Shown: positions 9,041 through 17,830 of the stretch, in pieces
Layout of the letters: every line of letters starts with the position of its first letter
Numbering within the stretch: the first letter of the stretch is position 1
IMG/VR virus record: IMGVR_UViG_3300006112_000056
Coordinates: 1 to 22,684 of that record
DNA: 22,684 nt
Reading direction: 5' to 3' (one strand)
Source of the DNA: a virus
The notes under the pieces: model-generated
What the model was told of the DNA's origin: nothing
The model's database searches: none
What the model saw: only the letters and a program-made list of their open reading frames with translations
Translations under genes and position numbers: made by a program

Positions 9041-12000
9041 TTATTGTTCCGCTACTGCAATGACATCCCAACAAGCTGCCGAAATACTTACAAAACCACT
9101 TGTAGCTTGAGAAATACTAACCGTCCACGATGTGCCACTTCCGGCAGTTATTGTAGTGCCTGATGTTATGCCTGATCCGCTAAGAACCATACCGATGGCG
9201 ATGGTTCCCGAATAAACAGTATTTACCGTTAATGCAGTGCCAGAAATGCTTCCAAAAAAATACGCACCAGTTGCATTATAAATACACGCCATATACAAAA
9301 CTTTTCCTGATACGGTGCTACTAGGGAATGATATTCCAATAGGACGGTATATACTTGCCCATGTCAGTGCTTGAGAAGTTAAGTTATCCGTGAAACGTAA
9401 CATCAATTTCTGGCCATCTACTGGATTTCCGGATGGAGCGGCGATGGTTGCTGATGTAGCCAGTGCTGTTATATTGTATTGATTTGTGGTTCCTGCCGTA
9501 GGCGTAATCGTAGTGCCGGTGGTTGTGTTGGCAGTAGAAGTAACAAATAATCTACTCACCGATAATGAATCTACTCCTACTGCAAAATTGTTAGTAGTAG
9601 TTACATTCGTTCCGTTAACTGGATTAGAGAAATATGTTCCATATAAATTAGTGAATGTTACAGGATTTGATGCGTTTAATTGAGATTGACCAAAGTAATT
9701 AATATTTACATTAGAAGATGCTGTTCCGCTTGAGGTTGTATCAGTATAAGTGGCATTGTTTTGTGTTATTCCCACGCCGTTCGCATTGGTGCCATACCAA
9801 CTTGCTGCTGAAACATTATTTGGAATTATACGTATTGCGCCATTACCGTTAATAGTTGTATTGGCAGCAGCATTTCCTATGAATACTGATGAAGTAATTC
9901 TTGAATTTCCTGTGACATCCAAGGTATATGCTGGGCTAGTCTGGTTAATACCTACATAACCATTTGAAGCAATACGCATACGTTCATTGCTTGCTAACTG
10001 TCCTCCCGTAAAGAATATAACATTAGCGTTTCCTGCCGTGCCGATGCCTAAATTTGTATTACCTGTGTATACATAACCATCTGATGGTCCAGTAACGGTC
10101 CATGATCCATTGCTCCAAGTATTACTTAGAATACCAATATCAATGAAATTATTACTTGAAGGTCCAGTAGTATCATAAATTGCAAAGTCGGCAGATGTGT
10201 TCTGACTTACGTTTGAATTCCAAATATATACCTGCACATAATTTGCAAGGTTACCTTGAAACGCGCCTATTGCATTGTTTGGACTATCATAATATAAACT
10301 TGTCGTTGCGTTTGGATTAGTGATCACGACTCCATTTGCAGACACATTGCTTGCTGATATCAGATTTCCTGTTGAAATATTTCCAGTAACAGTTAGGTTT
10401 GAAAGTGTTCCAACAGAGGTAATGTTTGGCTGCGCTGCATTTGTTACTGTATTTGCGGTGGATGCTGTGCCGATTAGGTTACCAGTAATAGTGCCACTTG
10501 GAACTATTATATTTCCAGCATTGATGTTTCCGGATGTAATTAAGTATGTTAATGTTCCAACAGAGGTAATGTTTGGCTGCGCCGCATTTGTTACTGTATT
10601 TGCCGTAGATACGCCTGATCCACCTACCAATTGCTGTGCATATACTGCATAATTTGCATTTGCTACCGTTCCAATTACATTTGGTCCTGATAATGAACTT
10701 AGATTTGCGCCGTTGCCAGTAATGTTACCCGTTACCGTAAGAGTGGATAACGTTCCAACGGAAGTAATATTTGGTTGAGCATTTGTTGTTAGTGTTCCAG
10801 TCAACAAACTACCAATAACACTACCACTTGGTGCAGATATATTTCCGGAATTGATGTTGCCGGAAACAATCAATGAAGATAGTGTTCCTGTTTGTGTAAT
10901 ATTTGCCTGAGTTGCACTTGAAATATTTCCGGTTAGATTTCCGGCTGGAAGATTTGTTAATGCCGTTCCGCTACCAAATACGCTAGTAAATACACCATTA
11001 CCCCCACTGATATTACCGGTGACACTAAGTGCATTTGTTGTCTTATTGAAGGTTAATCCCGGCTGTGCTGCAAAGTTTCCACTATCATTGAACAGAACCT
11101 GAGTATTTGACCCCGGTGCAATAGTCAATGCGGTAGTGCTTAACCAATTTACTCCACCTGATCCGTTAGAAACAAGCACTTGGTTTACAGTTCCACCAGT
11201 AATGACAATGTTACTAGTTGGACCCAAATTAGCAACGCCTGCCATATTCAGACTAGTCAAATTGCCAAGGGATGTGATATTTGGCTGTGCAGAAGTAACA
11301 ATATTACCTGCCAATGTAGTTGCCGTAAAGTTACCATTTAATATTGCGCCAGTTCCTATCACTGATAGGACATTTGCATTTCCAGAAACACTGATATTGA
11401 CATTTCCATTTAATGGAATATTAACATTAGAACTTCCGTTGATGATAGTAGAACCAGCAGCAACTGTAATACCTGTTAATTGACTACCATTACCAATAAT
11501 ATATGTAGCATTAACATTTCCTGTAGTGGTTAAATTTCCAGCAGCAATATTTCCTGAGACGGCTAAATTAGAAAGAGTTCCTACAGATGTGATATTTGGT
11601 TGTGCTGCATTTGTTACTGTTCCGGCATTTGATGCTGATCCGCTCAGTGCGCCAACAAATGTAGTTGCAGTAATTGCGCCATTTGCTAAGTTTGCACTAA
11701 ATGATGGATTTGATGTGTGTGCATAATTTCCGGTAGTATTTCCGCTCACAAAAGTAGGGTAATAGATTCCGGTTGATTGAGTCGTTACCGTAGTATTTAC
11801 TGCATTGGATGCCGTGGTTGCTGTCCCACTCAATCCTCCTACAAATGTTGCGGCAGTAATTGAGTTGTTTGATAAATTTGCGGAAATCCCCGAAGTGGTT
11901 ACTGCACTATAGTAACCATTACCTATTGTGGTAACAAATGCTGGATACACGTTGGTTGCGGATGAAGAATTGGTAAGTAAGGTATTGGCAGCATTCGCAT

Positions 12001-13282
12001 TTGAAACTGGACCAGTAATGTTTGCGGCGGTGAGTGAACTTAGACCAGAACCATTACCAAAGAAGTTTCCGTTGACATTTGCTGCCGAGATGTTACCTGT
12101 GACAGCGAGTGAAGTTAGTGTTCCAACAGATGTAATGTTCGGCTGAGCATTTGTTGTTACGGTTCCTGCGGTTGTTGCAGAGGTTGCCGAACCCGCATTT
12201 GTTGCATATGTTGCGTTTGCGACGTTTCCCGTTACGTTTGCTGCATTAATTGATGAAATGGCCGCACCGTTCCCGAACAGATTAGCGGTAACATTTGCCG
12301 CTGACACGTTTCCAGTAACATTGAGAGAACCCAAAGTTCCAATAGATGTGATGTTTGGCTGTGCTGATGTTGTTAACGTTCCTGCTACACTTGTAAATGC
12401 AGCATTATTTGCACCAATATTACCTACGTTTGCATTTCCTGTAGCGTTTAGTGTTCCTGCTACATTAATTCCAGTCGCAGTTATTACCACCACATTAGAT
12501 GTGCCGCCAACTGAAGCACTTATGTTTCCATTTGTTGATGTGACATTAACATTTGATGTGCCGTTTGCGATGTATGGGCTTGCGACGGCAATTACTCCAG
12601 TTAATTGACTACCATTACCAATAAAATATTGTGCTTTAATGTTTGCCGTGTTAGCGCAGATATTTCCAGTAGAATTTATTACATTAGCATTTACTATGTT
12701 TGCAGCAATAGTTCCAGAATTTGCATAAATGTTTCCGGAAGTAATCGTATTTGATACCGACACATTAGTTGTAAATGCGCCTGTTGATGCTCCTATATTA
12801 CCTACGTTTGCATTTCCAGTAACTAACAACACTCCTGATGTTGTTAAATTGCCGCCAGTGATATTTCCCGAAACACCTAAAATGTTGCCATTAATTCTGT
12901 TCCCAGTGATATTTCCTGAATTGGCTGTTAGATTACCAATGGCATTAATATCGGTAACTGTGTTTATTATTGATGGCAAATCAACAAAAAGAACTTGGGA
13001 TGAATCATTTATTGACGTAAATTGTGAGCCATTAGAGCCGCGACCGATGCTTAATGTGGTTGTTTGAACTTGAACTTGAGCAAGGTTCGCAGTAATAAGC
13101 ACATTTCCAGTAGGTGAATTGATTGAAATTCCTGGACCCGCTGCGATACTAAGAACTGCCTCGGACTTAAGACTATTGAATAACTGACTAAAGTTATTCT
13201 GAGTTTTTTGAAATGCAGTTCTGATTGCATCTGCGCTTGGATCGTCCGGGAAAGTTCCGAAATCTATATTCTGCTGGCTAAT
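9041..13282 (-). CDS. Long repetitive tail fibre protein, 1413 aa, apparent ATT start
   Basis: The coding frame is open from an ATT at 13282 and starts (I/M)SQQNIDFGTFPDDPSADAI, the usual N-terminus of a T4-like aquatic phage fibre, followed by RTAFQKTQNNFSQLF. Its only upstream SD is GGAG 7 nt before ATT; the first standard start (GTG 13102) would discard 60 recognisable residues. The shaft has eight copies of QPNITS.GTL..L.V.GN, interspersed with FGNGS.L and GNGSQLTG. The C-terminal region has YDSPNNAIGAF, a RMRIASNGYVGINQTSP motif followed by AYTLDVTGN, as in fibre knobs, and ends WDVIAVAEQ. A beta module (9074-9254) splits the last motif. It is probably trimeric. A late box at 13311-13318 precedes it. 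Confidence 0.86.
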   Translation of the reverse strand: MSQQNIDFGTFPDDPSADAIRTAFQKTQNNFSQLFNSLKSEAVLSIAAGPGISINSPTGNVLITANLAQVQVQTTTLSIGRGSNGSQFTSINDSSQVLFVDLPSIINTVTDINAIGNLTANSGNITGNRINGNILGVSGNITGGNLTTSGVLLVTGNANVGNIGASTGAFTTNVSVSNTITSGNIYANSGTIAANIVNANVINSTGNICANTANIKAQYFIGNGSQLTGVIAVASPYIANGTSNVNVTSTNGNISASVGGTSNVVVITATGINVAGTLNATGNANVGNIGANNAAFTSVAGTLTTSAQPNITSIGTLGSLNVTGNVSAANVTANLFGNGAAISSINAANVTGNVANATYATNAGSATSATTAGTVTTNAQPNITSVGTLTSLAVTGNISAANVNGNFFGNGSGLSSLTAANITGPVSNANAANTLLTNSSSATNVYPAFVTTIGNGYYSAVTTSGISANLSNNSITAATFVGGLSGTATTASNAVNTTVTTQSTGIYYPTFVSGNTTGNYAHTSNPSFSANLANGAITATTFVGALSGSASNAGTVTNAAQPNITSVGTLSNLAVSGNIAAGNLTTTGNVNATYIIGNGSQLTGITVAAGSTIINGSSNVNIPLNGNVNISVSGNANVLSVIGTGAILNGNFTATTLAGNIVTSAQPNITSLGNLTSLNMAGVANLGPTSNIVITGGTVNQVLVSNGSGGVNWLSTTALTIAPGSNTQVLFNDSGNFAAQPGLTFNKTTNALSVTGNISGGNGVFTSVFGSGTALTNLPAGNLTGNISSATQANITQTGTLSSLIVSGNINSGNISAPSGSVIGSLLTGTLTTNAQPNITSVGTLSTLTVTGNITGNGANLSSLSGPNVIGTVANANYAVYAQQLVGGSGVSTANTVTNAAQPNITSVGTLTYLITSGNINAGNIIVPSGTITGNLIGTASTANTVTNAAQPNITSVGTLSNLTVTGNISTGNLISASNVSANGVVITNPNATTSLYYDSPNNAIGAFQGNLANYVQVYIWNSNVSQNTSADFAIYDTTGPSSNNFIDIGILSNTWSNGSWTVTGPSDGYVYTGNTNLGIGTAGNANVIFFTGGQLASNERMRIASNGYVGINQTSPAYTLDVTGNSRITSSVFIGNAAANTTINGNGAIRIIPNNVSAASWYGTNANGVGITQNNATYTDTTSSGTASSNVNINYFGQSQLNASNPVTFTNLYGTYFSNPVNGTNVTTTNNFAVGVDSLSVSRLFVTSTANTTTGTTITPTAGTTNQYNITALATSATIAAPSGNPVDGQKLMLRFTDNLTSQALTWASIYRPIGISFPSSTVSGKVLYMACIYNATGAYFFGSISGTALTVNTVYSGTIAIGMVLSGSGITSGTTITAGSGTSWTVSISQATSGFVSISAACWDVIAVAEQ
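9074..9254 (-). repeat. Inserted SISGTALTV-type module at fibre tip
   Basis: About 60 residues reading GSISGTALTVNTVYSG, then TIAIGMVLSGSGITSGTTIT, then WTVSISQATSGFVSI. This GSI.G..LTV..V.SG.I..G..lSG.GI..GT.It pattern is a common module of phage structural proteins as I recall it. It lies between VLYMACIYNATGAYF and CWDVIAVAEQ, which look like two halves of one conserved fibre-tip motif. Confidence 0.6.
10407..10700 (-). repeat. Two 147-bp tandem repeat units in the fibre shaft
   Basis: A near-identical stretch (starting gttccaacagaggtaatg on the plus strand) occurs at 10407 and 10554, exactly 147 bp (49 codons) apart; the first about 48 bases differ at only a few sites. The encoded unit starts with TNAAQPNITSVGTL. 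Six further diverged copies lie at about 10755, 10880, 11265, 11576, 12118 and 12333. Confidence 0.8.
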
Positions 13283-16442: not shown

Positions 16443-16450
16443 TATTTATC
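16443..16450 (-). promoter_or_regulatory. T4-type late promoter box overlapping gene end
   Basis: GATAAATA on the minus strand, overlapping the last stop codon (TGA at 16451-16449) of the small-terminase gene and ending 27 nt before the next ATG (16415). Confidence 0.68.
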
Positions 16451-16931
16451 ATTGATCATTATTTTTGTTACTCAACATTCTGAGTAGCTCATTACGATCA
16501 AACGACTGTCCTTCGCCTAAGGGAGTAGATTCAATTTGTTCCGTCTTAGCTGCATTTTTAGCATCTAATGCTGCTTTCTTTAGCTGCATGTCAAGCATTT
16601 TGAGTTTCTTATTAATTTTCGCAGTCTTTGCCGTGATCGCATGTCCGAGAAATCCGCTTGCTGCGCTGAATATTTCTGCACTAAATCTGGAATCAACTTG
16701 CATTCCTAAATCAACAAGGTCTTTATAACTATTTGTTGCTAAAGCTGCGAGTTCATCCATTTCTTCATCGGCGGCTTCAAGTCCCTTGACTTGAGGTAGA
16801 GCGTTATCAATCTTTTCAAGAGTGCTTGCTGCTTCTGTGGTGATGTCGTGTACATGTTCAAGAATTGGGTGAGTGAGTTCATTTTCCTCACTGGTTGCCA
16901 ATTCAAACAGTTCTTCCAGTTTGCGACTAAT
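16449..16931 (-). CDS. Terminase small subunit, gp16-like, apparent ATT start
   Basis: The 160-residue protein reads (I/M)SRKLEELFELATSEENELTH at its N-terminus and has a long helical central region: IDNALPQVKGLEAADEEMDE, then DLVDLGMQVDSRFSAEIFSA, then GFLGHAITAKTAKINKKLKM and LQLKKA. This central pattern (two long helices with a G..V...H or RFSA turn and a KIDKKL stretch) is the gp16 family, which recognises DNA and regulates the gp17 motor during packaging. A short tail ends DRNELLRMLSNKNNDQ. ATT at 16931 has GGAG 7 nt upstream and gives 10 extra residues matching the family; the next usable start is TTG at 16901 without a ribosome site. In T4 gp16 sits directly before gp17-gp18; here it sits after gp4-like. 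Confidence 0.8.
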   Translation of the reverse strand: MSRKLEELFELATSEENELTHPILEHVHDITTEAASTLEKIDNALPQVKGLEAADEEMDELAALATNSYKDLVDLGMQVDSRFSAEIFSAASGFLGHAITAKTAKINKKLKMLDMQLKKAALDAKNAAKTEQIESTPLGEGQSFDRNELLRMLSNKNNDQ

Positions 16932-16954
16932 AGTAATTCTCCATTATTATGGAG

Positions 16955-16961
16955 TATTTAG
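16955..16961 (-). promoter_or_regulatory. Late-type promoter box (variant)
   Basis: CTAAATA on the minus strand, a one-to-two-base variant of the late box, ending 23 nt before the ATT start at 16931. This spacing equals that of the other boxes relative to their starts and so supports the ATT start. Confidence 0.5.
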
Positions 16962-16983: not shown

Positions 16984-17427
16984 TTATCTTTTGTTCTTTG
17001 GATCGCCGTTATAAAACAGATCATCTTCAGTTATTACACGAAATGCAAAGCCCTGTGATTTGCAGTATTTGGTTGCTGCTGACCATTTAGCCCTATTGAC
17101 AACAACTACCATTTTGTTTGCAGCAGATGCCTTACTTTCAATTATACTTTGCTTTTTTGGTTTGATTTCAACTACTTCTGCTATTGTTTTGCCAAATTTA
17201 TTCTTATACACGACAAAAAAATCGGGAATGTATATAGTAGGTTTTCCGGTAAAGGGGTGTTTGTATGGAATTTTAAGCGATTCACTGGCCCAATGTAAAA
17301 TATTTTCATTATTATCGAGAAAGACCATGAATGACATTTCCCATCCTGACCTATAGCGCGGTGCGCGATTACCTAAATATTTTTGTGGATTTTTTACGGT
17401 GTAAATGCCCTGCGCATACTTAGCCAT
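16984..17427 (-). CDS. 4: Head completion nuclease-like protein, gp4-like
   Basis: This 147-residue protein starts MAKYAQGIYTVKNPQKYLGN, with RYRSGWEMSFM (residues 24-34), PDF (68-70) and VEIKPKKQS (86-94). The pattern E30, D69, E87-x-K89 is a PD-(D/E)XK (TnsA-type endonuclease) active site, the same layout as in T4 gp4, which is needed to complete heads after packaging. The C-terminus (AKWSAATKYCKSQGFAFR, VITEDDL) fits this family. Length is close to the usual 150. ATG at 17427 has GGAG as ribosome site about 8 nt upstream. A late-type box (CTAAATA, 17467-17473) lies 39 nt before. It is next to the gp16-like gene. Confidence 0.86.
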   Translation of the reverse strand: MAKYAQGIYTVKNPQKYLGNRAPRYRSGWEMSFMVFLDNNENILHWASESLKIPYKHPFTGKPTIYIPDFFVVYKNKFGKTIAEVVEIKPKKQSIIESKASAANKMVVVVNRAKWSAATKYCKSQGFAFRVITEDDLFYNGDPKNKR

Positions 17428-17476: not shown

Positions 17477-17830
17477 TTAATTTATGATGTTTCTCTGCAC
17501 TGCTTGGTTTGGGTGAGGAACATTACTGATTCCATACATTGATGCTTTGGATTTAAATGTATTTAAGTAATAACAAATCAATGAATTCATCTGTAAAGTG
17601 TCGTTTGCACCTTTAATAATTTGCAAAAGTTCTATGACATTATACCCCCCTTGCTGTGCTATATTAAATAATATAGCAGCATAATTTCCAGCAATGGTAC
17701 GGTTATCAGATACTCCGTAGAAATATGAATATACGACATCATAATCTGACGCATTTACTACAGCATTCATGTTATAGAAACTATCATATATCAATACAGT
17801 TTGGTCGGGACGATATGTAATTGTAGCCAT
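17477..17830 (-). CDS. Small conserved-type phage protein, 117 aa
   Basis: The protein begins MATITYRPDQTVLIYDSFYN and has a beta/alpha pattern rich in Tyr and Asn; its end SKASMYGISNVPHPNQAVQR closes with NIIN. I recall this C-terminal motif (YG...P.PN..V.RNI) in unannotated structural-region genes of T4-like phages. No enzyme motif is visible. The ribosome site is poor (AAAGAA 14 nt upstream of ATG), and an AT-rich late-like box (17836-17843) is too close to the start for a normal leader, so co-transcription with the 527-residue gene is more likely. A later in-frame ATG (residue 21) would remove a good-looking N-terminus. Confidence 0.72.
   Translation of the reverse strand: MATITYRPDQTVLIYDSFYNMNAVVNASDYDVVYSYFYGVSDNRTIAGNYAAILFNIAQQGGYNVIELLQIIKGANDTLQMNSLICYYLNTFKSKASMYGISNVPHPNQAVQRNIIN

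Follow-up and report, generated by a model that had tools for sequence, protein, structure and literature searches.

A gene on the minus strand of the window, which is the whole stretch of 22,684 nucleotides that we analysed from the virus record IMGVR_UViG_3300006112_000056, appears to begin with ATT. This locus raises the question of whether AUU really is the initiation codon of the gene and, if so, how the gene acquired and kept it.

ATT as the start codon of the gp16-like gene

The gene in question (16449..16931, minus strand) encodes a gp16-like protein of 160 aa, a putative small terminase. The order at its start on the minus strand is TAAATA-CTCCATAATAATGGAGAATTACT-ATT-AGT-CGC. The predicted AUU initiation codon (16929..16931, minus strand), placed by column alignment to relatives and by its Shine-Dalgarno (SD) sequence, follows that GGAG sequence (16939..16942, minus strand) at a distance of 7 nt, the same SD and the same spacing as in other AUU alleles. 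A late promoter box, TAAATA (16955..16960, minus strand), lies 23 nt 5' of the AUU. Both the GGAG-7 nt-ATT AGT CGC arrangement and the late-type box had been described in the initial annotation, and both were placed correctly there. The gene immediately upstream encodes a gp4-like head-closure/completion protein (16984..17427, minus strand; phrog_218, PF08722), and the gap between the two genes is 52 nt. An inverted repeat, CTCCAT-AATA-ATGGAG (16939..16954, minus strand), found in the sequence and by RNA folding, occupies part of the interval from the late box to the AUU and overlaps the SD. The leader folded at -9.6 kcal/mol as read-through mRNA and at -1.8 kcal/mol when started at the late promoter, so that in this model the hairpin would mask the SD when transcription reads through from upstream, but hardly when it starts at the late promoter. 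In the leaders of T4 endonuclease genes the SD is likewise hidden in read-through RNA and not in late RNA (PMC2988022).

The evidence strongly supports AUU as the genuine start. Among 80 aligned relatives from IMG/VR (63-78% identity), the codon at the column of the window ATT was ATG in 74, GTG in 1 and ATT in 2 (L025 and L026), with an ATG one codon off in the remaining 3. Coding conservation set in immediately 3' of this column, and the residues after the start, T/S-K/R-K-L-E-E-L-F-E-L, were kept in both AUU and ATG alleles. Across codons 2-11 of 13 AUU alleles the differences were mainly synonymous (347 vs 167). The in-frame codons before the window ATT are TAA TAA TGG AGA ATT ACT, none of them ATG, GTG or TTG.

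The alternative, that AUU is not the start and that initiation occurs at a downstream TTG or GTG, or that ATT is an assembly error, is in our judgement very improbable. AUU initiation was read from the sequence and not from protein, and the window does have a standard start at codon 11, TTG 16901, the first one 3' of the ATT. Conservation of this TTG as a start among relatives had been named beforehand as the observation that would speak against AUU; instead, the relatives begin at the ATT column, and TTG 16901 was rejected as the start. In the AUU alleles the position of the next standard start varied between codons 5 and 50 and was not conserved, whereas the N-terminal peptide TKKLEELFEL was conserved and a well-placed SD was present in 32 alleles. 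Base-calling error is unlikely and was rejected because other IMG/VR contigs (L107/L280 and L110) carry the identical sequence, 100% over 5.9-11.4 kb.

The identification of the gene as a small terminase, also proposed earlier, was not established. Pfam and Foldseek gave no match for the protein (model pLDDT 68), and its PHROG family, 16202, is of unknown function. The small-terminase family phrog_445 was matched weakly by 2 of 40 members of the gp16-like family, and hhalign of the family to T4-type gp16 was not significant (p about 0.1). Small terminase is a guess. No cultured phage protein matched the window protein in a direct search; homology was reached through PA5oct PQE65_gp283, a homologous and syntenic gene with an ATG start that is annotated as hypothetical. 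In PA5oct TerL is encoded three genes downstream of the homologue and not adjacent to it, and the window has no TerL. Like the window gene, PQE65_gp283 and the homologues in RaK2-type jumbo phages follow the gp4 head-closure gene, but in PA5oct the ATG comes straight after gp4 and there is no endonuclease. Among cultured phages, the closest relatives are of the jumbo T4-like kind (PA5oct, Atu_ph07, Phosso and the RaK2 group). The gp16-like family sits in a large freshwater clade of such phages with contigs of more than 300 kb, G018 and related contigs reaching 367 kb.

Distribution of AUU starts

Including the window, we found 32 distinct AUU alleles of the gp16-like gene, from many metagenomes, all with a strong SD approximately 7 nt upstream. 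A first scan of IMG/VR for non-ATG starts of the N-terminal peptide of the gene yielded many further AUU alleles, one AUC and no AUA, and a later scan added 19 distinct AUU alleles. On the tree AUU was gained approximately ten times among ATG alleles, with at least 8 changes forced.

In 15 contigs carrying AUU alleles, AUU was essentially confined to this gene. When 18 contigs (approximately 1.4 Mb and 1,390 ORFs) were scanned for GGAG-N5-8-ATT at ORF starts lacking a nearby standard start, the hits were essentially the gp16-like gene and one further gene in the window, of fibre type; two large contigs with ATG alleles (244 and 367 kb) had no SD+ATT starts. The initial annotation had judged the ATT starts to be beyond chance, which agrees with this restriction, and had offered two explanations. 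The first, that host or phage tolerates AUU in general, was not supported, as AUU was limited to single genes and no homologue of IF3 (PF00707) was found in the 20 contigs searched. The second, deliberate low expression, may apply. Use of AUU across the genome, or a relaxed code, was rejected on the gene specificity of AUU, and a phage-encoded IF3 on the absence of the gene from the same 20 contigs.

The bacterial gene infC starts, after an SD, at a conserved AUU through which IF3 regulates its own synthesis. The gp16-like gene resembles infC in having a conserved, gene-specific AUU with an SD, and differs in that the 20 phage contigs searched are without an IF3 gene and AUU is associated with a mobile element, as described below. 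In T4 gene 26, Nivinskas and colleagues reportedly found that an internal AUU initiates a shorter product; this too is an AUU in a T4-type phage, but internal there and the only start of the gene here.

The fibre-type gene is the second GGAG-N7-ATTAG site of the window that had been pointed out earlier, and it is present at 13293-13280. The gene (9041..13282, minus strand) encodes a tail-fibre-like protein of 1413 aa with weak matches to PHROG tail fibres; its AUU lies at 13282-13280, its SD GGAG at 13293-13290 and its late box at 13316-13311. The codon aligned to this ATT in 80 relatives was ATG in 76, CTG in 2 and GTG in 1. Homologues with a CTG start were found in L345/L347 (3001), L150 (8500) and L054 (11645), and one with a GTG start in L351; the CTG starts follow a strong SD (GGAGAACTCCC-CTG and similar). 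An endonuclease was present at the start of this gene in L314, L316, L370, L351 and L054, in the last of these immediately upstream of the CTG, and relics were found in L364 and L365. At the second AUU gene of the window itself no endonuclease relic was visible.

Homing endonucleases at the start of the gene in relatives

In AUU alleles of relatives, the ORF immediately upstream, between gp4 and the gp16-like gene, usually encoded a homing endonuclease. These ORFs matched HNH, NUMOD3, I-HmuI-like and PHROG homing-endonuclease families (PF01844, PF07460, PF22083 and phrog_314/655/10088), and some GIY-type (GIY-YIG) ORFs were recognised through PHROG only. The endonuclease was present or absent at the same site among close relatives (L055/L074, L101/L198, L035/L033 and others), and in endonuclease-free sister alleles the insertion site was intact. 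The earlier reading of AUU as a genuine start stands, but it had missed these endonucleases at the start codon in relatives. The gap between gp4 and the gp16-like gene also takes cargo other than endonucleases: L145, L126, L023 and L030 carry other ORFs of 385-400 aa there, that of L145 without a PHROG match.

Most ATG alleles of the gp16-like gene have TAAATA 4-5 nt before the ATG and no SD; by analogy with the layout of T4 late promoters, their late mRNA probably starts at or beside the AUG. At the left boundary of the insertion, the late box and ATG(AC) of the gene now start the endonuclease (L118, L026, L105 and L055), and in L101 the old gene start can still be seen ahead of it, cut short as ATG ACC AAA AAA TAG. 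At the right boundary, the final codons of the endonuclease hold AAGGAG and overlap the new gene start. An example is the tail AAG GAG AAT CAA AAT TAC TAA, in which the gene frame reads A-ATT-ACT-AAR. In L035 the end of the endonuclease encodes a late box and the ATG is kept (C R L N N I stop, TGC AGA CTA AAT AAC ATA TGA). A C-terminal tail, KLVNGKRVW..KEN with SD+AUU, was common to HNH and GIY-YIG types; because both types have this tail, it seems to have been exchanged between them as a module.

From these sequences we were able to show, as far as sequence can be read in this way, the insertion point of the endonuclease, its relics, its supply of SD and AUU, and its association with AUU. The mechanism that we propose is as follows. 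A homing endonuclease gene would insert exactly at the start of the gp16-like gene and would take the late promoter and the AUG(AC..) of the gene as its own. Its last codons would at the same time give the displaced gene an SD (AAGGAG) and an AUU, the strong SD 7 nt upstream would render the AUU usable, and SD and AUU would remain after the endonuclease had decayed or been lost. We consider it probable, on the sequence comparisons above, that AUU with its strong SD starts the gene and that across the family AUU is a recurrent, kept replacement start tied to endonucleases at the start site. Weighing against this are the AUU alleles with no recognisable endonuclease, the ATG and lack of an endonuclease in the nearest relatives of the window, the endonuclease-bearing alleles with ATG or GTG, and the absence of a visible relic at the second AUU gene.

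In T4-like phages, free-standing homing endonucleases (seg/mob) are promoter-poor cassettes beside essential genes that use upstream host promoters. Some contain, within their own coding sequence, a promoter for the essential gene that follows, an arrangement said to help in their retention (PMC2988022). The cassettes described here are similar in that they are inserted next to a conserved gene and use an upstream promoter. They differ in lying at the start codon itself, in taking promoter and AUG, and in supplying SD and AUU from their 3' codons. In the literature searched we found no description of a cassette that lies at the start codon in this way and supplies SD and AUU for the displaced gene. 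In L138 (1-745) an endonuclease gene also lies immediately before the tail-tube (gp19-like) gene, whose start is GTG with the SD GAGGAG.

An intact or decayed endonuclease was found in 21 of the 32 AUU alleles; in the other 11, including the window, none was recognisable. Among ATG alleles endonucleases were rare. The decay states were a truncated HNH ORF (L025) and a GIY-YIG ORF of 42 codons with an internal deletion (L084), together with relics at the 5' side in L100 and the 3' side in G005. In the first sample, which was not selected for SD, AUU occurred in 11 of 16 endonuclease-linked rows compared with 1 of 139 others (Fisher p=2e-12), and 11 of its 12 AUU alleles were linked to an endonuclease. 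In independent contrasts between AUU and ATG, the endonuclease went in the same direction in 7-8 of 8. The endonuclease-bearing alleles without AUU kept ATG in six cases and had GTG in one. In the second sample, for which SD+AUU was demanded and whose split of 9 versus 10 is accordingly not an unbiased rate, 10 of 19 AUU alleles were endonuclease-free, and the proposition that AUU always means an endonuclease was rejected on these 10. Several of the endonuclease-free AUU alleles adjoin endonuclease-bearing ones in a clade in which 15 of 17 rows have AUU. Because such alleles occur, several of them beside bearing ones, AUU either outlasts loss of the endonuclease or can exist without one.

Origin of the window allele and retention of AUU

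The window allele is either a scar of a lost endonuclease or an independent case. A scar is plausible from its sequence, and under the proposed mechanism the window would be an endonuclease-free AUU allele, plausibly a remnant of that kind. Its leader has the same box+SD+AUU layout as the endonuclease alleles L025, L097 and L092. Its gp4 has the longer, KR-ending C-terminus (GDPKNKR*), a form seen in several endonuclease-bearing alleles; it resembles that of L049 (..GNPKNKR), which has an endonuclease, and that of L003, which has none. Both features speak against a direct change from ATG to ATT in the window after gain of an SD-bearing late leader, of the type of the T4 gene e leaders, without any endonuclease. 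We nevertheless give this course of events not far short of an even chance: the 52-nt gap contains no endonuclease ORF or recognisable relic, the nearest relatives of the window allele have ATG and no endonuclease, and the late box with its CTCCAT/ATGGAG hairpin resembles other SD-led late leaders.

AUU would be expected to initiate at a reduced rate. It may have been kept in place of AUG either because the altered site would be immune to being cut again or for reasons of dosage. There are three readings, namely protection from re-cleavage, tuning of dose against the strong SD, and a low-cost scar. A stronger form of the second, in which AUU with a strong SD is a dosage-tuning start that arose independently of endonucleases, keeps a late gene low or IF3-sensitive and is only secondarily linked to endonucleases, appears unlikely to us. 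The 11 endonuclease-free AUU alleles agree with it, as do the persistence of AUU in a clade both with and without the endonuclease and the use of an SD with a weak start in the fibre-type gene, which begins with ATT in the window and with CTG in L345/L347 and L150. However, the near confinement of AUU to endonuclease-linked alleles in the first sample, for which no SD was required, argues against it, and the endonuclease ORFs themselves carry near-identical SD+AUU tails. Protection from re-cleavage can be extended further: unrelated endonuclease families may share a portable SD+AUU 3' tail, AUU being selected as translatable yet target-destroying, with cleavage-proof alleles persisting as resistance and the phage depending on the remnant. 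We put this forward tentatively, as somewhat doubtful.

Gene callers limited to ATG, GTG and TTG mis-start or truncate genes of a phage family with a conserved AUU start such as this one. The finding also links non-AUG initiation to insertion of a selfish element at the start codon, with the endonucleases bringing a translation start for the displaced gene in addition to promoters. The many independent pairs of endonuclease-bearing and endonuclease-free alleles make dosage control, cleavage immunity and scar directly testable.

The layout of late genes was examined genome-wide in G017, G018 and G001-G008, and also at 17830 in the window. The distance from box to start was bimodal, either 4-6 nt without an SD or approximately 16-26 nt, mostly with an SD. 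Late genes with the box 4-6 nt before the ATG probably have leaderless mRNA. The idea that a leaderless AUG and AUU throttle only the gp16-like gene was weakened by this result, as late starts of the leaderless type are common across these phages.
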